This document shows, piece after piece, positions 374-18,703 of a stretch of DNA of 43,174 nucleotides. Each line of letters begins with the position of its first letter. Within the stretch, counting starts at the first letter, position 1. The notes beneath the pieces were generated by a model, which worked only from the letters and a program-made list of their open reading frames with translations, searched no databases and had not been told where the DNA came from. Source of the DNA: Bacteroidales bacterium (GTDB lineage: Bacteria; Bacteroidota; Bacteroidia; Bacteroidales; UBA932); NCBI GenBank assembly GCA_024401865.1, contig JAKSKI010000007.1, forward strand, positions 1 to 43,174. The letters are read 5' to 3'. The position numbers and the translations under genes were made by a program.

Positions 374-381
374 TATCTTTG
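374..381 (+). promoter_or_regulatory. Bacteroidota -7 promoter element for the corrinoid operon
   Basis: TATCTTTG matches the TAnnTTTG consensus of the Bacteroidota primary sigma factor and ends 22 nt before the ATG at 404. A good -33 TTTG at the expected 19-21 nt spacing is not seen; the nearest TTTG, at 341, is too far upstream. Confidence 0.6.
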
Positions 382-403: not shown

Positions 404-1663
404 ATGACAGGAAAAGAAAGGCTCCAAGCCGTACTGAATCACAGGAACGCGGACAAGATTGCCCTGGATTTCGGATCCACCAACGTTACCGGCATGCACT
501 GCCGCGTGATGGAGGCCCTCAGAAAACATTATGGTCTTGACGACCATCCCGTATATGTCTACGAACCGGGACAGATGCTGGGTCTTATGGAAGATGACCT
601 GGCCCAGGCCCTCGGCATCGACACCAAGGGATGCTTCTCACGCGAGAACAACTTCGGCATCGCCAATGAGGACTGGAAGCCCTTCAAGATGCCCTGGGGA
701 CAGACCATTATGTTCCCGGCCAGACTTGCCGACACCATCTCGGAGAAGGACGGAGCCCTCTACGGCTATCCTCAGGGAGACAACAGCCTCCCCCCTTCGG
801 CCAAGATGCCTCAGACCTGCTATTTCTTCGACTGTATCGAGCGCCAGCAGGGCGAAATCGACGATGAGAAGCTCAACGTCGAGGACAATCTCGAAGAATA
901 CGGCGAAATAAGCGACGCAGGAGTAGAATACTGGAAGAAGACCGTCGATGCGGCATCCAGGAGCGGGAGAGCCGTCGTGGCAAGCTTCGGAGGAATGGCC
1001 CTCGGAGACGTAGCCCGTATCATCACCCCGGCCCTCAAGCATCCCAAAGGCATACGCAGCGTGGCCGAATGGTATATGTCCACAGTCATCAGACAGGACT
1101 ACATACACGAGATGTTCGACCGTCAGTCAGAACTCGCCGTCAGGAATCTGGAGAAGATATACGCAGCTGTCGGCGACCAGGTGGACGTCGTATATGTATG
1201 CGGTACCGATTTCGGCACACAGATAAGCCAGTTCTGCTCTGTCGACACGTACCGCGAACTCTATATGCCGTACTACAGGCGTATGAATGACTGGATTCAC
1301 GAGCACACCTCCTGGAAGACGTTCAAGCACTCCTGCGGAGCCGTCTATCCTCTGATGGAGAGTTTCATCGATTCCGGATTCGACATCATCAATCCTGTCC
1401 AGATTGCCGCTGCCGAGATGGATCCGCGCCGGCTCAAGGAGCAGTTCGGCGACAGGGTCACGTTCTGGGGCGGCGGTGTAAACACCCAGACCACACTCCC
1501 GTTCGGCACCCCCGAAGACGTGCACAGGGAAGTCAGCGAACTCTGCGAAATATTCGGCAGGGACGGAGGATTCGTGTTCAACACCATCCACAACATACAG
1601 GCCAACGTCCCCATCGACAATGTGGTGGCTATGGTCGAAACATTAAAGCAAATCAGAGCATAA
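404..1663 (+). CDS. UroD-fold (MtaA/CmuA-like) corrinoid methyltransferase, probable substrate-side enzyme
   Basis: The 419-residue protein belongs to the uroporphyrinogen decarboxylase superfamily (COG0407-like), whose non-haem members move methyl groups to or from corrinoid proteins. The C-terminal half shows the family's HxC motif (His309, Cys311), a GGGVNTQ segment and a proline-containing loop (FNTIHNIQANVP). Where MtaA/MtbA-type enzymes carry the third zinc ligand Cys, this protein has His396, so its metal site differs from the second family member at 2931. It starts the operon and lies 4 nt before the corrinoid protein, which implies that they work together. I infer that it demethylates the substrate and methylates the corrinoid (MT1 role). 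A true heme-pathway UroD is unlikely given the context and length. Confidence 0.8.
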   Translation: MTGKERLQAVLNHRNADKIALDFGSTNVTGMHCRVMEALRKHYGLDDHPVYVYEPGQMLGLMEDDLAQALGIDTKGCFSRENNFGIANEDWKPFKMPWGQTIMFPARLADTISEKDGALYGYPQGDNSLPPSAKMPQTCYFFDCIERQQGEIDDEKLNVEDNLEEYGEISDAGVEYWKKTVDAASRSGRAVVASFGGMALGDVARIITPALKHPKGIRSVAEWYMSTVIRQDYIHEMFDRQSELAVRNLEKIYAAVGDQVDVVYVCGTDFGTQISQFCSVDTYRELYMPYYRRMNDWIHEHTSWKTFKHSCGAVYPLMESFIDSGFDIINPVQIAAAEMDPRRLKEQFGDRVTFWGGGVNTQTTLPFGTPEDVHREVSELCEIFGRDGGFVFNTIHNIQANVPIDNVVAMVETLKQIRA

Positions 1664-1667
1664 CGAT

Positions 1668-2285
1668 ATGTCAGCACTTTTTGACGCAATTTTCAAAGGC
1701 CTTCTGCCGGCAGCAAAGACCGCTGTCCAGGAAGCGCTGGATGCAGGCCAGAGCCCCCAGGAGATCATCAACGACAATATGGTTCCCGCTATGGAAGCCA
1801 TCGGCAAGGAATTCGCCGAAGGCCGTGTATTCGTGCCCAACCTTCTTCTCAGCGCCCGTGCAATGAAGGGTGCCCTTGAGATTCTCAAGCCCCTTATGCA
1901 GGCGGAGAACACCACCACCGCAGGCACAGTAGTCATAGGCACCGTCAAGGGTGACCTTCACGACATAGGCAAGAACCTGGTGGCATCAATGCTCGAAGGA
2001 CGGGGATTCAAGGTCATCAACCTCGGAGCCGACGTGTCCAAGGAACGGTTTATCGAAGCGGCCAGGGACAACGACGCAGACATCATCTGCCTGTCCGCCC
2101 TTCTCACCACCACAATGGGATATATGAAGGAAATCGTCGATGCGGTCAGGGAGTCCGGCATCAAAGTCAGGATTATGGTCGGCGGCGCCCCTCTCAATGC
2201 CGAATTCGCCAGGAGCATAGGCGCCGACGGTTACAGTTCGAATGCCAATGATGCCGTAGACCTGGCCAAGAGTCTGGTCGCCTGA
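1668..2285 (+). CDS. Corrinoid (cobalamin-binding) methyl-carrier protein, MtaC/MetH-like
   Basis: This is a 205-residue methyl carrier of the B12-binding superfamily. Residues 1-85 resemble the four-helix cap (B12-binding-2), and residues 88-205 the Rossmann-like B12 domain. The base-off/His-on motif DxHxxG is present (Asp96, His98 in GDLHDIGKN), with the later SAL and VGGAPL segments that line the nucleotide tail of cobalamin. The size is normal for stand-alone carriers such as MtaC, MttC or MtbC. It sits between two UroD-type methyltransferases and a reactivation-domain protein, which is the arrangement of a complete corrinoid methyl shuttle. Its partner substrate cannot be read from this protein. 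Confidence 0.92.
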   Translation: MSALFDAIFKGLLPAAKTAVQEALDAGQSPQEIINDNMVPAMEAIGKEFAEGRVFVPNLLLSARAMKGALEILKPLMQAENTTTAGTVVIGTVKGDLHDIGKNLVASMLEGRGFKVINLGADVSKERFIEAARDNDADIICLSALLTTTMGYMKEIVDAVRESGIKVRIMVGGAPLNAEFARSIGADGYSSNANDAVDLAKSLVA

Positions 2286-2307
2286 CAACACATCCGAATC
2301 CGGCCGT

Positions 2308-2970
2308 ATGAAAGAAGTCGAATTCACCATTGCTCCGGAAGAGCTTTCGAGGCAGAGCGTCTGGTTCGCCATGGGCTACAGGGGCTCGACCCCCGAGCAG
2401 CGCATCTGCGATATGGCGGAGGAAGTCATCGACGCCCTCCTGCCTGCAGCAGTGGTGAAATATATGTACCGACTGGTGCCCGCATCCAAGATCTCCCCCA
2501 CCGCCATCACTCTTGGCGGCACGGTGTTCAATCCCGGGGGCATCATAGGCTCGTATCTCGACGGAATGACGGATGCCTGCATATTCATCGGGACGGCAGG
2601 CCGCGAATTCGATGCCAAGCTCAAGGAAATCAATTCCGAAGGCGACATCGTGACCGACTTCATCGCCGATTCGATAGGCACGGTCCTGGCCGAACTTGCC
2701 GTAGACAGGCTGGAGCGGGACCTCCGCCCGGGCCTCAACCTCTCTATGCCCTACAGCCCCGGCTACTGCGGCTGGGACATCAGGGAGCAGCAGTCTTTCT
2801 TCCCCCTCTTCCCTCCCGAACCCTGCGGCGTCACCCTTACCGCGTCGTCGCTGATGCAGCCCGAGAAATCCGTCAGCGGATTCTTCGCAATGGGAGAGAA
2901 ACTCATCAGACAGCCCTATCATTGTGAAATATGCAAGAACAGCAAATGCTACAAAAGACGAAAAGGATAG
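2308..2970 (+). CDS. Stand-alone methionine-synthase activation-domain protein (putative corrinoid reactivator)
   Basis: The 220-residue protein resembles the C-terminal SAM-binding activation domain of MetH as found in free-standing proteins. The central segment RPGLNLSMPYSPGY, the following WDIREQQ and the GVTLTASSLMQPEKSVSG block (about residues 139-195) are characteristic. In MetH this domain helps to re-reduce inactive cob(II)alamin, so it probably repairs the corrinoid protein encoded just upstream, replacing the RACE proteins used by other systems. After the domain comes a tail with Cys-x2-Cys-x4-Cys and basic residues (CEICKNSKCYKRRKG), which could hold a metal or iron-sulfur cluster. 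Its 3' end overlaps the next gene by about 40 nt. Confidence 0.8.
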   Translation: MKEVEFTIAPEELSRQSVWFAMGYRGSTPEQRICDMAEEVIDALLPAAVVKYMYRLVPASKISPTAITLGGTVFNPGGIIGSYLDGMTDACIFIGTAGREFDAKLKEINSEGDIVTDFIADSIGTVLAELAVDRLERDLRPGLNLSMPYSPGYCGWDIREQQSFFPLFPPEPCGVTLTASSLMQPEKSVSGFFAMGEKLIRQPYHCEICKNSKCYKRRKG

Positions 2971-3920
2971 CCATCCCGATAATGACCCACCCCGGCATTG
3001 AACTTGTCGGATGCACGGTAAGGCAGGCCGTCACAGACGGCAAGACCCACGCGGATGCCATCTGCGCGCTCAACGGGCGCTTCCCGGCCGCCGCAGTCAC
3101 CGCCATTATGGACCTCACCGTGGAAGCCGAAGCATTCGGGGCGGAAGTAGTGTTCACCGAAGACGAAATCCCCAACGTCGTGGGGCGTCTGGTATCCGAC
3201 TACGATTCCGTTGCCTCGCTTGAGGTCCCCGGCCTGGACAAGGGCAGGGTGCAGCAGTTCCTTCTTGCCAACAGACTTACCGCCGAGCGCATCAAGGACA
3301 AGCCCATCTACGGAGGATGCATAGGCCCCTTCTCCCTTGCGGGCAGGCTCTTTGACCTGTCCGAACTTATGATGGCCATCTATATCGAGCCTCAGACCGT
3401 ATCCCTTCTTCTGGACAAATGCACCGAGTTCATCATATCCTACCTCAAGGCGATGAAGGGAACGGGCATAAACGGCGTGGTGCTCGCCGAACCTGCCGCC
3501 GGACTGATTTCCAACGATGACTGCAACGCCTACTCCACGGCCTACGTCCGTAAAATCGTGGAAGCCGTCCAGGATGACAATTTCATCATAATACTCCACA
3601 ACTGCGGCAACACCGGCCACTGCACCGACGCAATGGTCAGGAGCGGGGCTGCAGCTCTCCATTTCGGCAACCGCGCCGATATGGTGCAGGCCCTGAAGGA
3701 CTGTCCCGCGGACATTCCCGTGATGGGCAACATAGACCCGGTCGGGGTACTCGGACAAGGCACACCCGAATCTGTCAGGGAAGCCACCACGGCGCTGCTC
3801 GAAGCCACGGCGGGCTGGGACAATTTCGTGCTCTCCACGGGCTGCGACGTGCCGCCTCACATCCCGTTAGACAACATTGCGGCATTCTATGAAGCATTGG
3901 ACAACTTTAACAACAGATAA
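2931..3920 (+). CDS. UroD-fold methyltransferase with intact zinc motif (MtaA/MtbA-like, MT2-type)
   Basis: This 329-residue protein is the second UroD-superfamily methyltransferase of the operon. It carries the full zinc-site signature of MtaA/MtbA enzymes: His223 and Cys225 (HNCG) and Cys305 (STGC). Those enzymes pass methyl from a corrinoid protein to a zinc-bound thiol. The same role is inferred here, but coenzyme M is not expected in Bacteroidales, so the acceptor is unknown (homocysteine, tetrahydrofolate through another enzyme, or another thiol). The start at 2931 lies inside the 3' end of the activation-domain gene; an alternative ATG at 2946 would shorten it by five residues. Either way the genes overlap, which suggests translational coupling. 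Confidence 0.8.
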   Translation: MQEQQMLQKTKRIAIPIMTHPGIELVGCTVRQAVTDGKTHADAICALNGRFPAAAVTAIMDLTVEAEAFGAEVVFTEDEIPNVVGRLVSDYDSVASLEVPGLDKGRVQQFLLANRLTAERIKDKPIYGGCIGPFSLAGRLFDLSELMMAIYIEPQTVSLLLDKCTEFIISYLKAMKGTGINGVVLAEPAAGLISNDDCNAYSTAYVRKIVEAVQDDNFIIILHNCGNTGHCTDAMVRSGAAALHFGNRADMVQALKDCPADIPVMGNIDPVGVLGQGTPESVREATTALLEATAGWDNFVLSTGCDVPPHIPLDNIAAFYEALDNFNNR

Positions 3921-3922
3921 TT

Positions 3923-4777
3923 ATGGAACCTACACTCATTGACATCAATGACTGGAAAATGACCGGAGGAGGAGCGCAGGGAGACAGTTACATCGACAAA
4001 GCCACCGGCAACTACCTTCTCAAAATGTTTCACGCCAATCAGGCGAGATATTCCATCGAGGACGAAGTGACAAGGTCACTCAATGTATATGAGGCCGGCA
4101 TCCCTTCACCGGAGCCCGGACGGTTCGTGACTGACGGAGAGCACTTCGGAGCCATATTCAAACTCATCAAGAACAAGAATTCCTTCTGCACTGCCATCAG
4201 CAAGAATCCCGACTGTCTGGAAGATATCGCCACACGATTCGCCAAAATGACCAGGGACCTCCACTCGGCCAAGGTCAACAGGGACAAATTCGAACCCGCC
4301 ACCGTAATGTACCGCAATCTGCTCAATTCCAACACCACTATGGATGCCGATATGAAGGCGGTCTGCGACAGGATATTGACCGGGATGGAAGGCAGCAAGG
4401 CGGAACCCAGCTATGTCCACGGCGACCTCCATTTCGGCAACGTGATAACCGACGGAGTCAAGGACTATTTCATCGACCTGGGACAATTCTCATACGGAGA
4501 CCCCCTCATCGACGACTCGATGAACTATTTTACCTGCAAGCTCACCCAGGAGCATATGATACAATACCTGTATCACGTGGATTGCGCCACGGGACATAAG
4601 TTCTGGGATGTGTTTGAGAAGAGCTACTTCGACAAGCCCCTCGCAAACGACGACGCCTATATGGATCTGTACGCACCCTATCTGCTGCTCAGGACACTCT
4701 TCTTCGAGCACGTGGTGGGCAACGACGAGTACAACAAGGCCTACAGGAAGATGTTCATGGACAGGATTGCCAAGTAA
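3923..4777 (+). CDS. Aminoglycoside-phosphotransferase-fold kinase, TIGR02172-like
   Basis: This is a 284-residue kinase of the APH/choline-kinase fold. The catalytic loop HGDLHFGNV begins at His166 (Asp168 as probable base), and the metal-binding IDLGQFSYGDPLID follows about 15 residues later. The N-terminal region lacks a signal peptide, so it is cytoplasmic. The pattern resembles the TIGR02172 family, first defined in Fibrobacter and of unknown substrate. It starts 2 nt after the second methyltransferase and precedes the transporter, so it may phosphorylate an imported sugar or alcohol. That role is inference from position only; antibiotic resistance is not implied. Confidence 0.7.
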   Translation: MEPTLIDINDWKMTGGGAQGDSYIDKATGNYLLKMFHANQARYSIEDEVTRSLNVYEAGIPSPEPGRFVTDGEHFGAIFKLIKNKNSFCTAISKNPDCLEDIATRFAKMTRDLHSAKVNRDKFEPATVMYRNLLNSNTTMDADMKAVCDRILTGMEGSKAEPSYVHGDLHFGNVITDGVKDYFIDLGQFSYGDPLIDDSMNYFTCKLTQEHMIQYLYHVDCATGHKFWDVFEKSYFDKPLANDDAYMDLYAPYLLLRTLFFEHVVGNDEYNKAYRKMFMDRIAK

Positions 4778-4786
4778 GTTCAAGCG

Positions 4787-6205
4787 ATGAAGACCAGGAC
4801 AGACAATATTATGACCAACTGGCGGTGGTGGATTTGTTCGCTGCTGTTCTTTGCGACAACCATCAACTATATGGACCGTCAGGTGCTCTCCCTCACCTAT
4901 GAGGAATTCATCAAGCCCGAGTTTCACTGGACCGATGCCGAATACGGTACGGTGACCAGTTTCTTCTCCATCTTCTACGCGATTGCCTGCCTCTTCGCCG
5001 GCAAGTTCATAGACTGGATGGGCACCAAGAAGGGCTACATCATTTCGATATGCGTGTGGTCGCTGGGTGCCGTGATGCACGCGTTCTGCGGACAGGCCAC
5101 GAGCCTCATAACGGCTTCCAACGTCGCACTTGCAGTATCGACGACGTCGGTCTACCTCTTCCTTGTCTGCCGGGGCGTGCTCGCTCTCGGAGAATCGGGC
5201 AACTTCCCCGCCGCCATCAAGGTGACGGCCGAGTATTTCCCCAAGAAGGACCGGGCGTTCTCCACCTCCATATTCAATGCCGGGGCATCGGTGGGAGCCC
5301 TTGTGGCACCGCTGTGCATACCGCCCCTTGCCAAGCATCTCGGATGGGAGATGGCCTTCATCATCATCGGCGGTCTCGGATTCATCTGGGTGTTCTTCTG
5401 GGCCTTCATGTATGACAAGCCGGAGAAGAGCAGCAGGGTCAATCCTGCGGAACTGGCATACATACACACGGATGATGCCGAAGAGGCCGCGCAGAAGAGC
5501 GCGCTCGCCGAGGAGAAGAGCATTCCCATTCTCAAATGTTTCAAATACAGGCAGGCCTGGGCCGTAATCCTCGCCAAAGTCATAACCGACGGCGTATGGT
5601 GGTTCTTCCTGTTCTGGGCCCCTTCATATTTCGACAACCAGTTCGGAGCCAAGGCAACAACGACCCTAGGGCAGTTGTTGCTGATAGTGCTGTACACCAT
5701 AAGTTCGGTGCTATCCATATTCGGCGGATACCTCCCCAAATTCTATGTGGAGAAGAAGGGTATGCATCCCTTCGACGCGCGCATACGCTCAATGCTCATT
5801 TTTGCATTCTTCCCCCTGTGCGCACTGCTTGCCCAACCTATGGGAATGCACTTCGACAGTCCCTGGTGGCCGGCCATAATGATAGGCCTCGCCTGCGCGG
5901 GACACCAGGCCTGGAGCGCCAACGAATACAGCCTGGTGAGCGATATGTTCCCCAAGGGATCCATTGCAACTCTCACAGGACTGTGCTCCCTGCTTGGAGG
6001 CATAGGTACGATGGCTGTCCAGAAGATTGCGGGCAACCTGTTCGCCTTTGCCGAGAAGGCCGGAAGCGGATTCACCTTCCTCGGCTTCGAGGGCAAGCCT
6101 GCGGGGTATTTCATCATCTTCTGCTACTGCGGCCTGGCATATGTGGTGGCCTGGGTTGTAATGAGGATATGCATACCCAGATATATGCCTGTCAAATCAG
6201 AATAA
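4787..6205 (+). CDS. MFS transporter, anion:cation symporter (ExuT/hexuronate-like) family
   Basis: The 472-residue protein has about 12 hydrophobic segments. It carries the INYMDRQVLS motif in TM1 and the RGVLALGESGNFPAAIK segment of the first half, both typical of the anion:cation symporter family that imports hexuronates, sugar acids and some aromatic acids. A charged cytoplasmic loop (about residues 210-245) separates the two six-helix bundles. It probably imports an organic anion with a proton or sodium ion. The second ATG at 4811 (MTNWRW) is an alternative start. It lies between the kinase and the rhamnosidase in one operon, so its cargo is probably a product of rhamnosidase action or the methylated substrate itself. 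Confidence 0.85.
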   Translation: MKTRTDNIMTNWRWWICSLLFFATTINYMDRQVLSLTYEEFIKPEFHWTDAEYGTVTSFFSIFYAIACLFAGKFIDWMGTKKGYIISICVWSLGAVMHAFCGQATSLITASNVALAVSTTSVYLFLVCRGVLALGESGNFPAAIKVTAEYFPKKDRAFSTSIFNAGASVGALVAPLCIPPLAKHLGWEMAFIIIGGLGFIWVFFWAFMYDKPEKSSRVNPAELAYIHTDDAEEAAQKSALAEEKSIPILKCFKYRQAWAVILAKVITDGVWWFFLFWAPSYFDNQFGAKATTTLGQLLLIVLYTISSVLSIFGGYLPKFYVEKKGMHPFDARIRSMLIFAFFPLCALLAQPMGMHFDSPWWPAIMIGLACAGHQAWSANEYSLVSDMFPKGSIATLTGLCSLLGGIGTMAVQKIAGNLFAFAEKAGSGFTFLGFEGKPAGYFIIFCYCGLAYVVAWVVMRICIPRYMPVKSE

Positions 6206-6215
6206 CACCAATACT

Positions 6216-8804
6216 ATGAAACCGATACACCTCCTTACTCTCGCCGTTCTCCTTGCAGCAACGGCCTGCGGCAATGCCGACATCACTGCCGGCAAGCGCA
6301 CCGAAGCCCTCGACTCTTCACTTTGGGACCAGTCGTCCTGGATTTCGGCCAGGGACGCCGAAGTCGTGACCGGCCCCGTCAAGAATGATGAGAACCACCT
6401 TGCCGCAGATGGAGCGAGCTGGTTCCTGTCAACCGTTGCCAACGACAGCAAAGTCGTCTCCGCAAAATGGATGACGGCCGGTCTCGGCATATATGACATC
6501 TACGTCAACGGGAAGCTCATAGGAAACGAGATTCTCAAGCCCGGATTCACACACCCGTTCAAAACCAAACTCTCATTCACCTATGACATCACCGATGCTG
6601 TCCGCACCGGCAAGGGAGAGGAGAACGTGTTTGCCGCACAGGTTACACCCGGATGGTGGGCTGACAAGATAGTGACGCCCGGAGATACCGAGGGAATGAG
6701 AGGTCACAAGTGTGCCTTCCGCTCGGTGCTCGAGTTCGAATATGCTGACGGCTCCGTCAGGACTTTCGGCACCGACACCCTCAACTGGAAGGCCGGAACA
6801 GCCGGTCCCGTCAAGCACGCCGGAATTTTTGACGGAGAGCGTTATGACGCCCGCGAGACTATGGGATTCGACTGTCCGGATGCCCTCGGGACTCCTGAGA
6901 TCAACGACGAGTTCCAGGGAGAGATATTGCCTTCCAAGGGTGCAGAAGTGTATTATCGTGAAGACCTGGCCCTCAATCCGGTCAAGGCTTATATATGGAA
7001 CGGCATAGAAGGAGAGGGTGAAGAGGAATACGGCAAAGTGACAATCAAATGCGAGTTCGCCGAAGGAGAGACCATTACTCTCAACGAAGGAGAGACTCTG
7101 GTCGTAGACTTCGGACAGAACTGCGCCGGAGTGCCGGAATTCACGTTCGAAGCCGCCGGAGGCACTGTCCTGACCTGTCTCCCCGCAGAGATGCTCAATG
7201 ACGGCAACGGAGCGCACATACGCGGAATGGACGGCCCTGAAGGCAGCGTCTACCGCAAGAATCTCCGCTTCGCTGACGGCATATCGCTGACTTACACCTT
7301 CGCAGGCAAAGGCAGGAAGGAGCATTTCCGCCCGCGTTGCACCTTCTTCGGTTACAGATACATCTCCGTTACCGCCACTGACAAGGTGGTCATCAGATCC
7401 GTCAGATCCATACCTGTCACGTCCATAGCACAAAGTCTTGAGACAGGAGTGCTCACTACCGGTGACAAAGATATCAACAGGCTGATTTCGAACTCAGTAT
7501 GGGGCCAGAGGTCCAACTATCTCTCCGTGCCTACCGACTGTCCCCAGCGCAACGAGCGTCTGGGATGGACAGCGGATACCCAGGTGTTCGCCGAGACAGG
7601 CACCTTCTTCGCCAACACTGACAGGTTCTTCCACAAATGGATGAGGGATATGAGGGACAGCCGCAACGAAGCCGGCAGCTTCCCCGGCGTGGCCCCCACA
7701 GCACAGTACGGCAGGGAAATGTCCCGTCTCGGATGGGCGGATGCGGGTATCATTGTCCCCTGGACCATCTGGAAGCAGTTCGGAGACAGGGAGATTGTAG
7801 ATGAGAACTGGGAAGCTATGGACAAGTTTCTGGGCTATCTCACCGCCAACAAATATGACCACAACGCACTCATAGCGGACAACGGCAACTACCAGTGGGC
7901 CGACTGGCTGAGCTACGAGCCTCTCGAAGCGCAGACCGGAAGGGCATTCTACAGACTTCCCAACGGCAAGAGGGCGCCTCTGCCCGAGGCAGTCGAGTAC
8001 TGGAATTTCCTGAGCGCCTCCTATTGGGCATCGGATGCGACAATGATGGCTCAAATGGCTGCCTCCACAGGTCGTGATGCAGCACGCTATGAAGCCATAG
8101 CCGGGCAGGCGAAGGATTACATCAGGGAGACCTTCTTCAATTCCGACGGCTCATTCAAGGTCGACATTCTCAATACGATGCAGACTCCGGCCCTGTTCAC
8201 TCTGAGCAACGGCATCTTCGAAGGAGAGGCCAGAGAGGCTGTCATAGCCAGGCTGAAGGACAACTTCGCCGCCCACAACGGCCTGCTCCAGACAGGATTC
8301 CTCGGCACTTCGATAATTATGAAGACCCTGACGGACAACGGAATGGTCGACATTGCGTACGACCTCCTGTTCCAACACGGCAATCCAAGCTGGCTCTACT
8401 CCGTGGACAACGGAGCCACCACAATGTGGGAGAGATGGAACAGTTACACCCGCGAGGAGGGAATGGGTCCCAAGGGTATGAACAGCTTCAACCACTATGC
8501 CTACGGTTGCGTATGCGCCTGGCTGTGGGAGACCGCTGCCGGCATCAACGCCGACGTGAAAGCACCCGGATTCAGCCACATCATACTGAAGCCCGTACCA
8601 GATCGCAGACTCGGCTGGCTCAAGTCGGAGTTCAAGTCGGCGTCGGGACTTATCCGCAGCGAATGGAAATATGAGGGCGACAGCTGGACCTGGGAATTCA
8701 GCATACCTGAAGGAACTATAGCCAACGTTATCCTTCCCGACGGTTCAGCCCCTGCCGAATATGAGGCCGGAGACTACAAGCTCACTCTCGACAACGTAAG
8801 ATAG
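6216..8804 (+). CDS. Secreted alpha-L-rhamnosidase, GH78 (lipoprotein)
   Basis: The 862-residue enzyme hydrolyses terminal alpha-L-rhamnose from polysaccharides or plant glycosides. A lipoprotein signal (MKPIHLLTLAVLLAATAC, Cys18) predicts membrane anchoring. The N-terminal half is beta-rich, as in GH78. The catalytic (alpha/alpha)6 barrel begins near residue 410. The conserved acidic cluster DCPQRNERLGWTAD holds Asp441, Glu447 and Asp454, and the late MWERWNSY motif holds Glu739. A C-terminal beta domain closes the protein. It is the last gene of the corrinoid operon, 10 nt after the transporter, and is the best clue that the pathway's substrate is rhamnosylated. Its stop codon lies 3 nt from that of the convergent permease gene. 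Confidence 0.92.
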   Translation: MKPIHLLTLAVLLAATACGNADITAGKRTEALDSSLWDQSSWISARDAEVVTGPVKNDENHLAADGASWFLSTVANDSKVVSAKWMTAGLGIYDIYVNGKLIGNEILKPGFTHPFKTKLSFTYDITDAVRTGKGEENVFAAQVTPGWWADKIVTPGDTEGMRGHKCAFRSVLEFEYADGSVRTFGTDTLNWKAGTAGPVKHAGIFDGERYDARETMGFDCPDALGTPEINDEFQGEILPSKGAEVYYREDLALNPVKAYIWNGIEGEGEEEYGKVTIKCEFAEGETITLNEGETLVVDFGQNCAGVPEFTFEAAGGTVLTCLPAEMLNDGNGAHIRGMDGPEGSVYRKNLRFADGISLTYTFAGKGRKEHFRPRCTFFGYRYISVTATDKVVIRSVRSIPVTSIAQSLETGVLTTGDKDINRLISNSVWGQRSNYLSVPTDCPQRNERLGWTADTQVFAETGTFFANTDRFFHKWMRDMRDSRNEAGSFPGVAPTAQYGREMSRLGWADAGIIVPWTIWKQFGDREIVDENWEAMDKFLGYLTANKYDHNALIADNGNYQWADWLSYEPLEAQTGRAFYRLPNGKRAPLPEAVEYWNFLSASYWASDATMMAQMAASTGRDAARYEAIAGQAKDYIRETFFNSDGSFKVDILNTMQTPALFTLSNGIFEGEAREAVIARLKDNFAAHNGLLQTGFLGTSIIMKTLTDNGMVDIAYDLLFQHGNPSWLYSVDNGATTMWERWNSYTREEGMGPKGMNSFNHYAYGCVCAWLWETAAGINADVKAPGFSHIILKPVPDRRLGWLKSEFKSASGLIRSEWKYEGDSWTWEFSIPEGTIANVILPDGSAPAEYEAGDYKLTLDNVR

Positions 8805-8807
8805 TCT

Positions 8808-9602
8808 TCAGACGGAACTGCCTTTGCGGAAGAGTATTACCATCAACGGCAGCGCTATGATGCTCATCGTGGCGCTGACCGGCAGGTATATGCCGAAATT
8901 ACAGTAACTTACTATCACATAAGTGAGCAGCAGCAGAGCCACGCTCATTGCCGAACTCAGTGCATACTGTACACGTATATCCCCCGGCCTGACTATCACG
9001 CGGGCAAGATTGGGGATGGCCAGGCTCACAAACCCTATAGTCCCGCAGATGCTCACCACGCTTGTCACAAGCATACTTACCATAAAGAGTATCAGTGCTT
9101 TGCGCCAGTTAGGAAGCTCTATTTCGCCTTTATAATGCCGAGTCAGCGGACGGGCGGAAATAAGGGCCGAAGCGATGCCTGCCGCAAATAGAACCGCGCT
9201 CAACGCCACATCGGCACCGCTCACGCCTTCCATCCTGAAATTGGCAGCTCCCCACAGATAATACTGCTTGAGCAGATCTCCCGTCGGGGCATTGGTCACC
9301 ACTATGGTCCCGAGGGAACCGACGAATGTCCCGAAGAGGATGCCGAAGGTTATGAGACGGCTGGTGCTGATGCAGAGGGCCACGAGGCTGACTATCACAG
9401 CGCAGGCTATCTGGCATACAAAAGCTCCCGAGGTCAGTGAGCACCACCCCGTCATAGTAGCCACAGCGGCGCCCAGACAGGCGGCGGAGCCGAGACCCAG
9501 CGAATAGATATCCCCCAGTTGATTACGCCACAGGTACTGCATCTGCACTCCTCCCACCGGGAGTGCGATGCCACATAGTATTACATAAAGAATATTCAGC
9601 AT
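8808..9602 (-). CDS. FecCD/BtuC-like ABC transporter permease, N-terminally short
   Basis: The 264-residue membrane protein aligns with BtuC/FecCD permeases from the GxxMQxLxRNxLxDxYxLGxxSGA-type motif onward (here GGVQMQYLWRNQLGDIYSLG). Family members are about 325-340 residues and have some 60-65 residues before this point, including the first transmembrane helix. An in-frame stop at 9615-9617 rules out a longer upstream start. The downstream cytoplasmic-loop region that contacts the ATPase (GTIGFVSLAIPNLAR) is intact. It starts 4 nt after the BtuB-like receptor gene, so it is cotranscribed under the cobalamin riboswitch. No BtuD ATPase or BtuF binding protein is adjacent. It may be a working short form or a decaying remnant. 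Confidence 0.75.
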   Translation of the reverse strand: MLNILYVILCGIALPVGGVQMQYLWRNQLGDIYSLGLGSAACLGAAVATMTGWCSLTSGAFVCQIACAVIVSLVALCISTSRLITFGILFGTFVGSLGTIVVTNAPTGDLLKQYYLWGAANFRMEGVSGADVALSAVLFAAGIASALISARPLTRHYKGEIELPNWRKALILFMVSMLVTSVVSICGTIGFVSLAIPNLARVIVRPGDIRVQYALSSAMSVALLLLTYVIVSYCNFGIYLPVSATMSIIALPLMVILFRKGSSV

Positions 9603-9606
9603 AGTA

Positions 9607-11412
9607 TCAGAATTTCAGTCCAAGTTCGCCGCAGAACGACCTTCCGGGCATAGGGAATCCGGATGAGAGTTCATAACGGCAGTCCGTCAGGTTGCGGGCG
9701 GTGATGCCGGCAGTTACAATCAGTCTGCCGGGCAGTTTGAAGTCTTTGTCAAGTATGATGTCCAGAGTGTTCCAGGATGGCATTGCGCCCGTCCCGTCAT
9801 ATCTGCCGTCCCTGAGGTTCCATACCGCCGAAGCCTTCCACCCGCGGAAGGAACCGTCAGCGGACAAGGTCAGGGAGTGTCTGGCTATGAACGGAATCTG
9901 ACTGCCGTACGTCGCGCTGTCAGGAGTCTTGTCCAAGGCATCCTGCAGAGAATACGCCGCCATTATCCCGGCTGTCCATTCCCTGCCGCTGAATTCCATT
10001 CCCGACCTGACATCGAGCCCGCTTATCCGCACGACTCCTATATTGTATGGCAGCCAGATGCCGGGATCATAAGGAGTCGGAGAGGATATTATCTTATTGT
10101 TCAAATAGTTGTAGAACCCGTCCAGCTTGACGTTGAAGCGCCACCCGGGCCGGAAGGAGCAATGGTATTCCACTCCGGCATCAGTAAGCCAGGCATCCTC
10201 CGGCTTCAGCTCGGGATTACCGAAACCCGGATAATAGAGTTCATTGAACTGAGGTGTCCTGTATGCCCTGCGCCCGAATGCCACTATGTCGAGGCCCTCC
10301 GTCAGCATCCATCGCAAATCCACAGACGGGGAGAGTGTATTGTGACATTTTGTCCTGTCGAACACTCCGTCATACATCAGCGCTACGTCCGCCTTGAAAC
10401 GGCTGAACCGCAGCGTTGCCGACATCGCGGCCGCAGTCGAGAATCTGGATGCTTCGAACAGATTGGAGCGGAGATTGTCCCAAACCACATTCGCAGTCAC
10501 GGAAGCGTTCAGCCATTCATTCAGCCGGAAGCGGTGGGATGAATTGAGCTGGAATTCCGACTGCCCATAATCGTCATTGCCCCATTCGCTCAGATAGGCC
10601 ATCTTGTCATAGGAGGCCTTGGCGCTCATATCCAGGGTGTAAAGTCCGGAGAATCTGTTGTTCAGCACTCCCTGGACCAGGGCGTTCCGGTCCTTCTGCC
10701 TGTCGGTCGAAGGCCAGTCCGTAGATCCGGGCACTCCCCTGTCGGAGTCGTTGTAATATGCCTTGACGTGCCATCGGCCGGCATTGAGACGGCCCCAGAC
10801 ATCTACTCCGCCGCGTAAATGTCTTATGTCATTGTTGGCACGCCGGAGATTGTCTGCATAAGGGAAATCGCCCCTGCTGATAACGCCTGAGCCGGATGCC
10901 GTGAGGCTCACCTTGTCAGAAAGCCGGAAGTCCATACGGGCTGAAGGTTCCCAGGTGGAGAAAGATCCGGCCCTGAACTTGAATTTGCCGACCACAGGCC
11001 CGCCGTCAAACACGGGGCGTGCCGACGTGAACGACAGACTGTTCTGGGCATAGTCCACGACAACCGTCTCAAGATTGCCGATATCCAGCATTCCCAGGTC
11101 ATTCTGTCCGGTCTGCACATTGCCCACCCTGACACCATCCAGATAAATAGCAGTATGACTGCTCCCGAATCCGCGAAGGCTCACGGACTTGAGCCCGGCG
11201 GACGCACCGCAGTCATTCACAAATAGACCGGGCAGTTTCTGCAGCGCATCGGTGATTTCGATGGTTCCCGCAAGGTTAACCGTATCGGTCTTGGACACAA
11301 CAACACCCCTGTCGGCCACGACAGTAACCGCCTGTAAGGTGTCAAAATCGGATTTGTAATCCGGGGTGACTTCCGCGATGGCGCAGAAGGCCACGAGTAA
11401 TGAAGAAAACAT
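9607..11412 (-). CDS. btuB: TonB-dependent receptor, probable cobalamin receptor
   Basis: This 601-residue outer-membrane receptor has a short signal sequence and a TonB-box-like stretch (LQAVTVVADR). The plug domain follows (about residues 40-150; LQKLPGLFV, SLRGFGSSHTAIYLDGVRV), then a 22-strand-type barrel with internal TonB-receptor motifs (RTPQFNELYYPGFGNPELKPE). It ends in an aromatic residue (ELGLKF). The size fits BtuB rather than the roughly 1000-residue SusC family. The assignment to cobalamin rests mainly on the B12 riboswitch in its leader and the adjacent BtuC-like permease. It probably supplies the corrinoid needed by the methyltransferase operon across the gap at 8.8 kb. Confidence 0.85.
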   Translation of the reverse strand: MFSSLLVAFCAIAEVTPDYKSDFDTLQAVTVVADRGVVVSKTDTVNLAGTIEITDALQKLPGLFVNDCGASAGLKSVSLRGFGSSHTAIYLDGVRVGNVQTGQNDLGMLDIGNLETVVVDYAQNSLSFTSARPVFDGGPVVGKFKFRAGSFSTWEPSARMDFRLSDKVSLTASGSGVISRGDFPYADNLRRANNDIRHLRGGVDVWGRLNAGRWHVKAYYNDSDRGVPGSTDWPSTDRQKDRNALVQGVLNNRFSGLYTLDMSAKASYDKMAYLSEWGNDDYGQSEFQLNSSHRFRLNEWLNASVTANVVWDNLRSNLFEASRFSTAAAMSATLRFSRFKADVALMYDGVFDRTKCHNTLSPSVDLRWMLTEGLDIVAFGRRAYRTPQFNELYYPGFGNPELKPEDAWLTDAGVEYHCSFRPGWRFNVKLDGFYNYLNNKIISSPTPYDPGIWLPYNIGVVRISGLDVRSGMEFSGREWTAGIMAAYSLQDALDKTPDSATYGSQIPFIARHSLTLSADGSFRGWKASAVWNLRDGRYDGTGAMPSWNTLDIILDKDFKLPGRLIVTAGITARNLTDCRYELSSGFPMPGRSFCGELGLKF

Positions 11413-11462
11413 TTTTTGCCGTATTAACAGAGACTTGTCCCCGAGTCCTGGATGTTAAACTT

Positions 11463-11609
11463 GAATACGGCAGGTCTTCGGACTCGTCCGTGTCGTGAGC
11501 CTTCCCATCCCTCACAGGGACAGTGGCGCAGAAATCACGACAGCACTGATGGATTCACCGCTGCGGGCACAGTTCAGGATTCAAACCTGATTCCCTTTGC
11601 ACCTTATTC
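11463..11609 (-). promoter_or_regulatory. Cobalamin (AdoCbl-type) riboswitch
   Basis: Read on the minus strand, the leader contains the hallmarks of the B12 riboswitch in order: GGTGCAAAGGGAATCAGG, GTGCCCGCAGCGGTGA, GCCACTGTCCCT, GGGATGGGAAGGC and a B12-box-like GAGTCCGAAGACCTGCC. A closing P1 stem forms between GAATA.GG (11609-11602) and CC.TATTC (11470-11463). Downstream, a hairpin pairing TTAACA with TGTTAA around an inner GACT/AGTC stem lies before the ATG at 11412 and may be the expression platform. It should shut down receptor and permease synthesis when cobalamin is plentiful. Confidence 0.93.
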
Positions 11610-11614
11610 CGATG

Positions 11615-11622
11615 CAAAGATA
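11615..11622 (-). promoter_or_regulatory. -7 promoter element for the riboswitch transcript
   Basis: TATCTTTG on the minus strand matches TAnnTTTG and lies 5 nt before the P1 stem of the riboswitch, so transcription would begin right at the aptamer. A clear -33 element is not seen. Confidence 0.6.
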
Positions 11623-11797
11623 GCAATTCCGCGTTAACTTTCTTAACAATTCAGCAAAAAGAATCTGTCAACCGGTTATGGGGCAGCCCGGAGGACACTC
11701 CAGCCGAAGGTTCCCGGACTCGCGCAGCGTAGATGCCGTCACGCAACGGCGTATGTCGACGACCGTTACGCGCACAGCGTAAAAGGGAGGAGTCAGC

Positions 11798-11985: not shown

Positions 11986-13320
11986 CTACAGCGGCTTCTT
12001 GAAAGAGAGCTTCAGCACATAATCGGGGCTGTCAGCAGCAACAGAAGGGACCTCGACCTCGATACCGCTCTTCTTGCTCTGCTTGAACTTGACAGGAGTC
12101 CCGTCAGAGAGTGACACAACGCTCACAAGCTTGTTGTCCACATAGGGAATCACAACCTTGGACACAGGTTTGAGGATATGCAGGTACAGATTGTTGCCGT
12201 TCTGCGTACTTACACCCCATTCGGACTCGGGCACGCAGCCTGCGACCGTACCATAGATGGATTCTCCGTTGACCTTGAGCCAGGCACCCATCTGACGGAG
12301 GAGAGCGGCGCTCTGGTCGGGAATGCTTCCGTCGGGACGGGGACCCACGTTGAGGAGCAGATTGGCTCCCTTGCTGGCCGTGCGGGCGAGAAGGGTGATG
12401 AGTTCCTTGATAGTCTTGTAGGGAGAGCCCACAATCTTGTAACCCCAATCCTTATTGATGGTCTGGCAGGTCTCGAGAGGCAGCGAAGACACCTTGGTTC
12501 CTGTCAGGTAGCCACTTGTGTTCTCACCGGGCACATCCCTCTCAAAAGGCTGGATATCCTCTCCCGGATAAGGTGCGACGTGGTGATTGTTGGCTACGAG
12601 GCAGGAAGGCTGAAGCCTGTGGATGAGCTCATATTCCTCCTTCATATCCCAGACCTTGTAAAGCTCCGCATACGAGTAATCATTCTTCTTGTCCCAGTAT
12701 CCGTCAAACCATATGGCACCGATGGGGCCGTAATTGGTAAGCAGCTCCGTCAACTGGGTACGCATAAACGCAAGATAGTCCTTCCAGTCATCGGGTTTGC
12801 CCTCCGGGCGTCCTACTCCGTGTCCTTCGCGTCCGAGAGGCCAGTAGTCGAGTCTGTGCCAGTCCAGATGCGAATAGTAGAAGTGGAGCTTGATGTTCTG
12901 CTTGCCGAGGGCATCGGCGAGTTCCTTGACGACATCCCTGCCGTAAGGAGTTCCGTCGACGATATTGAAGTCACTCGTCGCTGTCTTGAACATTGAGAAT
13001 CCGTCGTGATGGCGGCTGGTGAATGTCACATATTTGGCGCCGGCTTCCTTGAAGAGAGCGGCCCACTCCTCGGCATTGAACCTGGAGGGGTAGAATCCGT
13101 TGGCGAGCAGGGCATACTCTTCATAATTGATGTTCTTGCGGTTCTGGATCCATTCTCCGTCGGCCAGCATCGAATAGATGCCCCAATGGATGAATATGCC
13201 GAAACGCTCCTGATTGAATTCGCGACGGGCCTGCATACAGGCCTCTGTAGGCACATACGACTGCGCCGAAACGTTTGACGCAAGTACCAGGGTTGCAAGG
13301 ATGAAAAGAATCTTCTTCAT
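11986..13320 (-). CDS. Secreted alpha-L-fucosidase, GH29
   Basis: This exo-glycosidase releases alpha-linked L-fucose from glycans such as mucin or xyloglucan side chains. From the chosen ATG at 13320 the protein is 444 residues, with a signal peptide (MKKILFILATLVLASNVSAQ) and no lipobox. The GH29 domain shows RFGIFIHWGIYSM near residue 40, TSRHHDGFSMF near residue 100 and the nucleophile motif AIWFDGYW (Asp206). A small C-terminal beta domain follows. The frame is open for 22 more codons upstream, but that extension destroys the signal peptide and overlaps the preceding gene. It lies 19 nt after the ArsP_2-type membrane protein gene and is probably cotranscribed with it. Confidence 0.92.
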   Translation of the reverse strand: MKKILFILATLVLASNVSAQSYVPTEACMQARREFNQERFGIFIHWGIYSMLADGEWIQNRKNINYEEYALLANGFYPSRFNAEEWAALFKEAGAKYVTFTSRHHDGFSMFKTATSDFNIVDGTPYGRDVVKELADALGKQNIKLHFYYSHLDWHRLDYWPLGREGHGVGRPEGKPDDWKDYLAFMRTQLTELLTNYGPIGAIWFDGYWDKKNDYSYAELYKVWDMKEEYELIHRLQPSCLVANNHHVAPYPGEDIQPFERDVPGENTSGYLTGTKVSSLPLETCQTINKDWGYKIVGSPYKTIKELITLLARTASKGANLLLNVGPRPDGSIPDQSAALLRQMGAWLKVNGESIYGTVAGCVPESEWGVSTQNGNNLYLHILKPVSKVVIPYVDNKLVSVVSLSDGTPVKFKQSKKSGIEVEVPSVAADSPDYVLKLSFKKPL

Positions 13321-13339
13321 ATCGGTTAAAAGTTTGATG

Positions 13340-14338
13340 TCATACAAACAGCATTGCCGCAAAACCCACGACGAGCGCGGCGGCACAATTGATGAGTTTG
13401 GCCTTGAGGAAACTCCGCTTGCTCTCGGCTATCAGAGGAAGCGAAGCGTGTCCGTCCTGGCTGATGCAACTGGCCAGAAGCACGGGCAGAGGCACGATAC
13501 CGGAAGCATACAGCGTCACGAACACAAGGTGGGGTCCGGACTCGGGGATAATACCTATCACAGTAGCCAGCAATATCATAAGCACCGTATTGCCGCTTAT
13601 CCAGGACTGAATGTCGAAATACTGCATCAGAAGCCCCAGTACGGCCAGCACGCCGAAAGTCCAGCAGAATATGCCGGGAAGGTGCTTGACTATGACGTGA
13701 TGCCACAGATGCTCTTCAATAAAATGGTTGGAGCCAAACAGAATCACGCCCAGCACCACAGTGCAGAGCACGGCAAACGCGATATGCATCCACCTCTCGT
13801 CTGGCTCGTCATTATCCAGGACCAACAGGGCTATGAACCCAACCGTGGCTGCGGCGAGCACGGCCCTCTTCCAGCTCAGGCGCCATTTGTCGCGGTGAAT
13901 CTCGACCCTGTCCTCTTCGTGCACCTCATAATTCTCGGTGCAGTGCATCTTCTCATCCTTCTTCACAAAGACATCGGTCAGCAGGCCCGTCACCACGGCT
14001 ATGCCGAACAGCAGGCAGAATATCCAAAGAGCGTCCCCGGGTATCATAGCCATCATCACGAAGGCCTCATCTCCGCAGGAAGCTATCATCATAGCCACAA
14101 GAGCGCCGAAAGACAGCATCCTGTGGGTGTACAGGGACACTGTGGCAAAACCGCCCATACAACCGGGAATCACGCCCAGAGCGGCGCCGACTATCACTCC
14201 ACCCACACGGCCCTTGCCCAGATTGGAGAAGAACCATCCCTTCGACTCGATGTTAAGCGACTCAATCATCATCATCATCATCACCACAAGTCCGGTGATG
14301 AAGATGCTCTGATGCAACGCTTCGCTCAAAAATTCCAT
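13340..14338 (-). CDS. ArsP_2 / putative manganese transporter family membrane protein
   Basis: The 332-residue polytopic membrane protein has about 9-10 helices in two halves. Each half ends in a similar glycine/proline-rich motif: GVIPGCMGGFATVSLY in the first and GIIPESGPHLVFVTLY in the second. This is the internal repeat of the PF11449 family (called putative heavy-metal or arsenic exporter, or putative manganese transporter). A His/Glu-rich cytoplasmic loop (about residues 128-150) sits between the halves. The transported ion is not established, and neighbours give no metal-related context: the next gene downstream is an alpha-L-fucosidase. Its ATG follows a good -7 promoter box by only 7 nt. 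Confidence 0.75.
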   Translation of the reverse strand: MEFLSEALHQSIFITGLVVMMMMMIESLNIESKGWFFSNLGKGRVGGVIVGAALGVIPGCMGGFATVSLYTHRMLSFGALVAMMIASCGDEAFVMMAMIPGDALWIFCLLFGIAVVTGLLTDVFVKKDEKMHCTENYEVHEEDRVEIHRDKWRLSWKRAVLAAATVGFIALLVLDNDEPDERWMHIAFAVLCTVVLGVILFGSNHFIEEHLWHHVIVKHLPGIFCWTFGVLAVLGLLMQYFDIQSWISGNTVLMILLATVIGIIPESGPHLVFVTLYASGIVPLPVLLASCISQDGHASLPLIAESKRSFLKAKLINCAAALVVGFAAMLFV

Positions 14339-18600: not shown

Positions 18601-18703
18601 ATGCGCGTGCACTCTCACGGTCAATGCTGTTGACCTGGGGGTCGGTAATCTCGCTAGGCAGATTGACCGAGATGGCAAGAAGGGCCAGTAGCAGAATCTT
18701 CAT
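15677..18703 (-). CDS. Beta-galactosidase, GH2 (LacZ type), secreted
   Basis: This 1008-residue glycosidase has the full LacZ layout. A signal peptide (MKILLLALLAISVNLPSE) is followed by a jelly-roll sugar-binding domain (about 55-215), immunoglobulin-like domain, TIM barrel (about 310-600), a second immunoglobulin-like domain and the beta-galactosidase small-chain domain at the C-terminus. The catalytic acid/base is Glu440 (WSLGNETG) and the nucleophile is Glu499 (VCEYAHAMGN). In Bacteroidota such enzymes act on plant or host beta-galactosides in the periplasm. It starts 4 nt after the GH3 gene and runs by one base into the aminotransferase gene. No SusC/SusD pair accompanies it. Confidence 0.93.
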   Translation of the reverse strand: MKILLLALLAISVNLPSEITDPQVNSIDRESARAYSMPLAGVAAALNDELEPVTPWVKSLNGVWEISWSGDPSRRSDVWQTIDVPSCVETRGFGVPGYTNVRYPYKHEPPFIRDYVLGTEDYNPVSSYRTEFTVPETWAGRDVILRFDGVYSAYFVKVNGCQAGYAEDSKLPSEFNVTKYLKPGTNLLEVEVYRWCDGSYLEDQDMFRFSGIFRDVTLVAMPRERIEDFFVRTVLTNSYRDARVSLTVRSTAPSVRAELYDAQFRKVGTFKGPESSLTVRNAHLWSAEDPYLYTLVIRSGEDIRSVKVGLKQVEIKGNVLLVNGRKVKFKGVNRHEHSAVNGRTVSLEEMEQDILLMKRHNINTVRTCHYPDHHSWYDLCDKYGLYVVAEANVEGHGMGYKEEGLGRDPRWAKSIVERNANHVGNYRNHPCVTIWSLGNETGTGVCFEQARDAVKELDPTRPVHWERGNEIADVASNMYPTLENLASKADGDKPFFVCEYAHAMGNAVGNLQEYWDVFYSSDVLSGGCIWDWVDQALVKETGRYDKSGNPITVLAYGGDYDEVPNDGPFCCNGLVRPDRKVTAKLVEVAHVYRQLVLTSEDASTGRGELWNRFSFTDASEFDACWTLLEDGRVVESGDWKVPSVAPLAKVEVTLPRPSYAVKPGREYFLNVYFKLRKPALWADKGHTVSSEQLVWNNDTEAVPAASAVVKPVAVRGEKTLTVSAGSLEAVFCNRTGALVSLKSGGKELLDIRSDASAGPRLSCMRALGDNDNWIGNIYDYGLTQLRYHSGRPELQEKEDGSVEVRVTTDVTGAKSAGFEHSAVWEFTTDGRIVLHNSVTPYGHMPEALPRLGLSMVLGSDFEKVEWYGRGPWENYVDRKTGSFVGRYASTVTEQYEEYVRPQFNGYKSDVRWFALYDAEGRGVRFSASQPLYVQALHYDWEDLEFARHRNGQKRIVNIPSPRSEVCLNLDIRQLGIGGRSCGPKPLDKYIFPIRQENWDITIESFCAD

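Follow-up and report, generated by a model that had tools for sequence, protein, structure and literature searches.

MtvB has the fold of uroporphyrinogen decarboxylase (UroD), and the Mtv, Odm and Mto systems use activators of the RACo/Ram kind. In the available part of the source on these systems, a donor enzyme, a corrinoid protein, a second methyltransferase, an activator and a major facilitator superfamily (MFS) carrier are encoded in one operon (PMC8630106), as in the locus described here. MtgBCDE of Ruegeria pomeroyi was described as a dual methionine synthase and glycine betaine methyltransferase (PMC12478193), and the type 1 mlp clusters were tied by their authors to methyl-sulfur metabolism (Kountz and Balskus, PMC10418091), according to the available parts of both articles. 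Here, we analyzed a seven-gene operon in 43,174 nucleotides (nt) of a Bacteroidales bacterium of the UBA932 lineage (assembly GCA_024401865.1, contig JAKSKI010000007.1, positions 1 to 43,174 of the forward strand), the whole of which is referred to as the window. Its start is a contig end, and its source is a 1.56 Mb draft genome with 83% completeness. The seven genes, mtB, cor, act, mtA, kin, mfs and GH78, lie on the plus strand between 404 and 8804 with gaps of at most 22 nt; this gene set, its places and its spacing, as listed in a first-pass annotation made from the sequence alone, were borne out by open reading frame (ORF) calls and Pfam. The gene content identified by Pfam also supports the reading of the locus as a putative corrinoid methyl-transfer system.

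The core of the operon is conserved in the genus. An mtB search of 398 genomes of the family matched 11 at E ≤ 1e-25, including the window genome. Six congeners carry mtB orthologues 69–71% identical to that of the window, and the seven sequences form one clade in the tree (support 100/99). The order mtB-cor-act-mtA-mfs was kept at all six loci; in G763 the locus is divided between two contigs, with mtA-mfs on the latter. Identity to the window was 75–81% for cor (six congeners), 58–61% for act (four measured), and 70–73% for mtA and 71–75% for mfs (five measured each). Genes at the relatives' loci were called by homology and a composition score, and some frames and starts remain wrong: the act ORF of L162 was displaced by gene calling (PF02965 matches there with 20.8 bits, under the family cut-off), and the mfs ORF of L163 is short at its start (429 amino acids). 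With five of its seven genes in the same order in congeners, the operon is not a chance assembly. Neither kin nor GH78 was present in any of the six congener operons, and both therefore look like additions of the window lineage. In three congeners mtB is immediately preceded by a co-directional purL, which overlaps it by 4 nt in two of them, an arrangement that looks biosynthetic rather than catabolic. Genome G494, which has a distant mtB-like protein, was left out of both congener groups; it carries a separate mtA-act-cor-RACo cluster without mtB (L189:4391-8336) and also a full MetH and MetF.

The presence of the operon coincided with a reduced set of methionine genes. In the six operon-bearing congeners, the sole match to each of PF02965 and PF02607 was the operon's own protein (20 genomes searched), no full-length MetH was found, and neither methylenetetrahydrofolate reductase (MTHFR, MetF) nor MetE was detected (31 genomes searched). 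The MetE-type domain PF01717 had no match in the operon or in the 28 genus genomes searched. A protein with the homocysteine domain PF02574 was detected in five of the six, in an open frame of 499–656 codons. Among 20 congeners without the operon, namely those appearing in the family-wide mtB search, 14 had both MetH (frames of 1156–1431 codons) and MetF and six had neither, and none had a homocysteine domain without MetF. The association between the operon and a homocysteine domain without MetF gave a Fisher P value of 9e-5, which ignores kinship. Six genomes (G471, G544, G552, G558, G582 and G588) matched none of MetF, MetE and the homocysteine domain of MetH, and they seem to be methionine auxotrophs. 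Homoserine succinyltransferase was also tried as a marker of methionine prototrophy and was uninformative, being absent from 30 of 31 genomes.

The five remnants have the same architecture: a homocysteine domain (271–282 bits) is followed by an eroded half folate barrel, with no B12 or activation domain. In the folate part NIGERTNV is replaced by NVGKSPDF or similar, and the Pfam match is weak (best E = 2e-7) or missing; the cysteine motifs NCS and GGCCG are intact in all five. The gene stops inside the contig in G701, G726, G740 and G629, and in G629 a tRNA_SAD (alanyl/threonyl-tRNA editing) domain precedes the remnant in the same open frame (L187:8768-10705). One G763 copy is cut by the contig end, and in a second incomplete copy (L194:2-2023) the folate part ends at the same place and is followed in frame by an alpha-L-fucosidase, the sequence of which begins lipoprotein-like. 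When the G701 remnant was searched against the 398 family genomes, the top five matches were the five operon genomes (80–100% identity), and the next-best genome showed 57% identity in a 1137-codon frame. Frames below 1000 codons were found, among the matches listed, in G454, G453, G447, G430, G520 and G596, with 42–58% identity. Gene content, conservation, co-occurrence and MetH erosion are direct observations: a MetH reduced to a bare homocysteine domain goes along with an operon that encodes a corrinoid protein and an activator of its own, and MetF is lost as well. The simplest reading of this coincidence is that the operon provides the methyl group of methionine, an apparent link to methionine synthesis that the first-pass annotation did not contain.

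In our judgment the chance is about even that the mtB-cor-act-mtA-mfs core is a methyl-salvage module, which strips an imported O-methyl compound of its methyl group and, in the relatives, passes this group to homocysteine. Its chemistry and substrate are here inferred from sequence throughout. The carrier mfs would bring in a small methylated molecule, with an O-methyl sugar or sugar acid as the likeliest candidate; mtB, judging from its fold, its His-Cys-His motif and its partners, would use it to methylate cor at its Co(I) corrinoid; and cor would hand the methyl group to a thiol. By homology to the activation domain of MetH, act would re-reduce oxidized corrinoid. In five congeners the likely acceptor is homocysteine on the MetH-remnant domain, which would yield methionine without folate. 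The mtA product, with its His-Cys-Cys site, could serve either as another methyltransferase acting on a thiol or as a donor enzyme for S-methyl groups. Methyl-ether demethylation by the operon is plausible. In the window genome, which keeps MetH and MetF, the module would act only as a supplementary methyl source beside them, and kin and GH78, as later local additions, would perhaps handle the released sugar or expose the substrate.

The predicted division of labor between the two UroD-fold enzymes came from their active sites. In mtB, H309 and C311 were found in 115 of 115 aligned rows and H396 in 114 of 115 (window sequence counted twice), and H309-x-C311 ... H396 forms a putative zinc site. 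The corresponding residues of mtA are H223-x-C225 ... C305 (numbering of the ORF from 2931), so that the two proteins align at one site, His-Cys-His versus His-Cys-Cys. In 13 hand-picked rows, HCH was seen in five of six mtB-type sequences, the remaining one being the distant UroD protein of L170 (HDH), and HCC in seven of seven mtA-type sequences. According to the available part of the source, S-methyltransferases of the UroD superfamily have His-Cys-Cys, and O-methyltransferases have one or both cysteines replaced (Kountz and Balskus, PMC10418091). By this rule, mtB would act on O-methyl groups and mtA on sulfur. The AlphaFold model of mtB (pLDDT 94.5) matched best the folds of MtaA (4ay7) and UroD structures; a sequence search of the PDB with mtB reached E = 0.045 at best.

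The neighborhood of mtB was further surveyed outside the genus. At E ≤ 1e-30, a search of 393 genomes of the order detected mtB in 35, including the window genome, and the GTDB relatives, the best 80 of 211 confirmed stretches, had an mtB with a strikingly uniform 48–57% identity to that of the window. Neighbors were counted within 12 kb of mtB at 115 loci with an mtB match above 250 bits, a set in which the same species may occur twice across two genome collections. A corrinoid gene was found at 43 loci, a RACo activator at 25, a homocysteine methyltransferase at 22 and a sugar-porter MFS of another type than the window's at 15. An ACS-type MFS was found at only two, L040 and L102; the MFS gene, annotated as part of the unit, belongs to it in the genus (six of six congeners), and an ACS-type MFS is rare beside mtB elsewhere. 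A homocysteine methyltransferase was present at 19 of the 43 loci with a corrinoid gene versus three of the 72 without (P = 2e-7). By record titles, the 19 loci fall to Verrucomicrobiota (14), Acidobacteriota (2), Bacteroidota (1), Deltaproteobacteria (1) and unassigned (1). Both acceptor enzymes, the homocysteine and the pterin-binding methyltransferase, occur beside mtB elsewhere, the former more often. The density of ORF matches below 5 kb from mtB compared with 5–12 kb was higher by 15-fold for corrinoid genes, 19-fold for homocysteine methyltransferases and 12-fold for sugar MFS, versus only threefold for GH29 and twofold for GH2. In the verrucomicrobial loci L062, L072 and L079, several very divergent UroD-like ORFs stand in a row beside one corrinoid gene; of three such ORFs of L062 scanned against Pfam, two were without a match.

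Same-strand neighbors were also tallied by Pfam. The tally covered 157 (77 + 80) of 253 non-core neighbors, with loci of the window genus, short ORFs and others omitted, and took in the first 25 families of each of its two parts, so that the counts are lower bounds: at least 14 Sugar_tr, eight GH2, eight homocysteine methyltransferases, six Gfo/Idh/MocA, four sugar-type binding proteins (PF13407), two alpha-L-fucosidases and two sulfatases. Sugar transporters and sugar-related neighbors of mtB point to sugars. The first-pass annotation had proposed methylated flavonoid glycosides or O-methyl sugars as substrates; the sugar transporters beside mtB in other phyla favor the O-methyl sugar part of this proposal, and the flavonoid part found no support.

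An O-methyl sugar or sugar acid is accordingly the most likely substrate and our first choice, with methoxyaromatics and methanol or methylthiols as alternatives. The carrier scored 188 bits against TIGR00893 (ACS), which is below the cut-off of 395 yet the best-scoring subfamily, and among five E. coli ACS transporters it was nearest ExuT (134 bits), then DgoT (118 bits). In G494 (L168:7076-15598), a carrier 42% identical to mfs adjoins an mtB-like UroD gene and an aldo/keto reductase gene, so carrier and UroD stand together there too; a rhamnose-mutarotase family protein and an alginate-lyase-like protein are encoded a few genes away. We conjecture that 4-O-methylglucuronate would suit a uronate-type carrier such as mfs, and a rhamnosidase could conceivably expose 4-O-methylglucuronate-type residues on arabinogalactan side chains. 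Among the matches listed, no work on sugar O-demethylation by corrinoid enzymes or on 4-O-methylglucuronate catabolism was recognized in the titles and abstract openings of open-licence PMC articles. In its widest form the proposal is tentative, and we hold it somewhat less probable than not: gut-type Bacteroidota would make methionine free of folate by importing methyl ethers of glycans, for example 4-O-methylglucuronate, and passing the methyl group from a His-Cys-His UroD enzyme through the corrinoid to homocysteine on a decayed MetH, with MetF lost, and a like circuit, with homocysteine and in some cases folate as acceptor, would run in Verrucomicrobiota, Acidobacteriota and others.

Several observations weigh against methyl salvage for methionine. 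Elsewhere, mtB stands without a nearby corrinoid gene at 72 of the 115 loci. Nine of the 43 corrinoid-bearing loci have a pterin-binding methyltransferase, an enzyme that would hand the methyl group to folate; four of the nine have a homocysteine methyltransferase as well (two queries and Pfam), and 19 of the 43 have neither acceptor enzyme. Some of the homocysteine methyltransferases there are fused to MTHFR, and with 14 of 19 in Verrucomicrobiota the loci are not independent. Within the genus, the operon-bearing G746 (88% complete) has no detectable PF02574 homocysteine domain, and the remnant gene does not adjoin the operon in any of the five genomes. In the window genome, MetF is encoded on contig 11 together with MetH (1081 amino acids, with five Pfam matches, that to the activation domain being partial), so the operon is not the sole route to methionine there, and the only PF02574 match sits in this full MetH, with no separate homocysteine module. 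The absence of homoserine succinyltransferase from 30 of 31 genomes, which bears on the origin of homocysteine, also counts against it.

The best-surviving rival, an Mtv/Odm/Mto-type O-demethylase of methoxyaromatics that would import aromatic acids through its MFS and hand the methyl group to tetrahydrofolate, is in our view rather unlikely. ACS carriers move organic anions, a property that would suit it, and the pterin methyltransferases at nine of the 43 corrinoid-bearing loci elsewhere favor it too. The broad part list is also alike, and the archaeal mto operon includes an MFS gene in the available part of the report (PMC8630106). However, no pterin-type methyltransferase was found among the seven operon genes (Pfam scan; congener genomes were not searched for PF00809), and no MetF was detected in the six congeners. 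The same-strand neighbors of mtB elsewhere are more often sugar porters, GH2 and Gfo/Idh/MocA proteins, and the carrier, at 188 bits as ACS, scored only 55 bits as an aromatic acid symporter.

MetH erosion could also be incidental, the operon-bearing congeners being methionine auxotrophs in which the remnant serves another role and the operon belongs to unrelated catabolism. The six other congeners without MetH, MetF and MetE suggest that auxotrophy is probably common in the genus, and the remnant shares its frame with other domains in G629 (tRNA_SAD) and G763 (fucosidase). Against this stands the retention of NCS and GGCCG in five genomes at 80–85% identity to the G701 copy, and among the matches listed a remnant at that identity was found only in operon-bearing genomes, which makes incidental erosion unlikely in our view.

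A feed of methanol or methylthiols would leave methionine as the product, with mtB or mtA taking the methyl group from pectin-derived methanol or from a methyl-sulfur compound; we give this little credence. In g223, a genus of the same family, a gene for the methanol enzyme MtaB lies directly before mtB at three loci (L165, L166 and L167), with cor and act coming after mtB in L165 and L166, and these bacteria may possibly use methanol. MtaB was, however, neither in the window operon (Pfam scan) nor near the six congener operons, and methanol would need no MFS carrier. As g223 has mtB besides MtaB, mtB is itself probably not a methanol enzyme. For methylthiols, mtA does have the His-Cys-Cys site of S-methyltransferases, by the rule in the available part of the source (PMC10418091).

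Rhamnoside catabolism, the first-pass interpretation, in which a methylated flavonoid glycoside or polysaccharide loses its rhamnose to GH78 and the remainder is taken up by the MFS and demethylated by the methyltransferases for growth, is improbable: although GH78 and kin are co-directional with the operon at gaps of 2 to 10 nt and the top PDB match of GH78 is the putative rhamnosidase 3w5m (E = 6.2e-103, phmmer), GH78 was found at none of the 115 mtB loci (one phmmer query, E ≤ 1e-10) and in none of the six congener operons, and the four further PF17389 matches outside the operon indicate that GH78 genes are common in the window genome. On this lack of co-occurrence GH78 was rejected as a member of the system. 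The first-pass annotation had named methyltransferase genes lacking GH78 or MFS in most relatives as a refuting outcome; it was observed for GH78, whereas within the genus the MFS passed this check. A kin homologue was likewise found at none of the 115 loci (one phmmer query, E ≤ 1e-10).

If methyl salvage for methionine is correct, it would explain an anaerobic fate of the methyl ethers of plant and algal glycans in bacteria and would tie the methionine supply of gut bacteria to glycan chemistry and B12. Close relatives with MetH and MetF, with neither, or with a one-domain MetH and the operon offer a natural experiment, and a testable function could be assigned to a widespread family of proteins annotated as uroporphyrinogen decarboxylase-like, which are often encoded close to sugar transporters.

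Features of the operon, the adjoining unit and the related stretches are listed below. The spacings in order are 4 nt (mtB/cor), 22 nt (cor/act), an overlap (act/mtA), 2 nt (mtA/kin), 9 nt (kin/mfs) and 10 nt (mfs/GH78). The element ahead of mtB resembles TAnnTTTG, which we take to be the −7 box of Bacteroidota, and with this promoter-like box just ahead of mtB the operon is probably not truncated at its 5' end. As expected for a corrinoid system, a UroD-type donor methyltransferase (mtB) adjoins cor, a stand-alone corrinoid protein with both B12-binding Pfam domains. The Met_synt_B12 match of act covers the C-terminal part only, and its PDB match is 1j6r (E = 3.3e-7, phmmer). The mtA ORF opens at 2931, and its probable start at 2946 (MLQK) is shared by the congener orthologues; mtA matched 4ay7 in the PDB (E = 9.2e-19, phmmer) and NF004889 (MtaA) with 150 bits, below the cut-off. 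For kin, no PDB homologue was found at E ≤ 0.01. In GH78, the N-terminal, concanavalin-like, 6-hairpin and C-terminal Bac_rhamnosid domains were all matched. The Pfam scan of the operon found no MttB-type donor, the donor candidates matching URO-D only, and neither the homocysteine nor the folate domain of MetH; its activator is of the MetH type (PF02965), not of the RACo/Ram type.

Table. Positions of the operon genes, the adjoining B12 uptake unit (both in the window) and the related stretches in other genomes.
Feature	Position	Strand	Evidence and remarks
−7-box-like element TATCTTTG	374..381	+	by eye, no statistics; 22 nt ahead of mtB start codon; weak
mtB, UroD-fold methyltransferase, 419 amino acids	404..1663	+	Pfam URO-D E = 1.4e-14; predicted O-type methyl donor enzyme
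cor, corrinoid carrier protein, 205 amino acids	1668..2285	+	Pfam B12-binding 1.1e-30 and 2.8e-20; motif GDLHDIGKN
act, MetH-activation-domain-like, 220 amino acids	2308..2970	+	Met_synt_B12 (PF02965) 7.6e-8; presumed corrinoid reactivator
mtA, second UroD-fold methyltransferase, MtaA/CmuA-like	2946..3920	+	URO-D E = 3.9e-57; predicted S-type
kin, APH-like small-molecule kinase	3923..4777	+	APH Pfam 2.7e-11; nearest TIGR02172, below its cut-off
mfs, ACS-type MFS carrier	4787..6205	+	MFS_1 3.2e-50; TIGR00893 below cut-off
GH78 alpha-L-rhamnosidase	6216..8804	+	four GH78 Pfam domains, best 8.8e-94; lipoprotein-like signal by eye
FecCD/BtuC-type permease	8808..9602	−	FecCD Pfam 7.8e-28
BtuB-like TonB-dependent receptor	9607..11412	−	TonB receptor 2.2e-30; TIGR01779 76 bits, below cut-off
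Cobalamin riboswitch	11452..11642	−	Rfam RF00174, 85 bits versus 31.5 bits gathering, full length
purL-mtB stretches, three congeners	L159:14800-18657, L160:1417-5259, L162:13982-17833		purL Pfam-confirmed
MtaB-mtB stretches, g223	L165:3900-7961, L166:2094-6092, L167:6645-9338		

The BtuB/BtuC-like pair under a cobalamin riboswitch was correctly recognized in the first-pass annotation, together with its link to B12 uptake. The unit is convergent with the operon, the FecCD and GH78 gene ends being 3 nt apart, and at the congener locus L163 the operon and a riboswitch-BtuB-FecCD unit are oriented divergently; such a unit adjoins the operon at two of the seven genus loci, in differing orientations. 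The riboswitch was rejected as a regulator of the methyl operon: across the seven genus loci, at the gathering threshold, it was found before BtuB only (window and L163). Other Rfam matches at congener loci were an RT-5 RNA at L164:14390-14492 (minus strand) and a DUF805b RNA at L189:376-411 (minus strand). Beyond the riboswitch, the minus strand of the window encodes a GH29 alpha-L-fucosidase (11986-13386), a GH2 beta-galactosidase-like protein (15677-18703) and a GH3 protein (18708-20762), with an ArsP_2-type permease and an aminotransferase interspersed. A second APH-family protein of 357 amino acids is encoded on the plus strand (25604-26677) after a DAHP synthase/chorismate mutase fusion gene.

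Among described systems, MtgBCDE shares with the congeners a stand-alone corrinoid protein common to a demethylase and a homocysteine module, without an intact MetH; in the available part of its description, however, the donor is MttB-type (pfam06253) and the pterin module MtgD is essential (PMC12478193), whereas the operon here has a UroD-type donor and no pterin enzyme, and a separate homocysteine module is present only in congeners (five of six), as a MetH remnant encoded away from the operon. Mtv, Odm and Mto, as far as their source is available, pass the methyl group to tetrahydrofolate (H4F) or tetrahydromethanopterin (H4MPT) (PMC8630106), unlike the operon, in which a pterin enzyme is missing and the activator is of the MetH type. 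Type 1 mlp clusters resemble it in an MtaA/MtbA-like UroD protein with a corrinoid protein and no H4folate methyltransferase, but the available text has them need at least Mlp2 and Mlp3 and a Ram/RACE activator (Kountz and Balskus, PMC10418091); here one His-Cys-Cys UroD protein is joined by an O-type UroD protein and a MetH-like activator, a comparison of parts and not of the Mlp clades themselves. The MesA-D core methionine synthases likewise make methionine without methyl-folate, probably from corrinoid proteins, and are MetE relatives according to the available part of their report (PMC7857596), whereas PF01717 is matchless in the operon and the 28 genus genomes. In the methanol system MtaABC, MtaA resembles mtA, and the g223 loci pair MtaB with mtB, but the operons of the genus have no MtaB. 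Unlike that system, no coenzyme M metabolism is known here, to our knowledge. MetH itself is a four-domain single chain, which neither the operon nor the congener remnants match. No description of this gene combination was found in titles and abstract openings of the open-licence PMC literature, among the matches listed. The combination of parts in the operon is a variant on known corrinoid methyltransferase systems, and its coincidence with MetH erosion is the unexpected finding.

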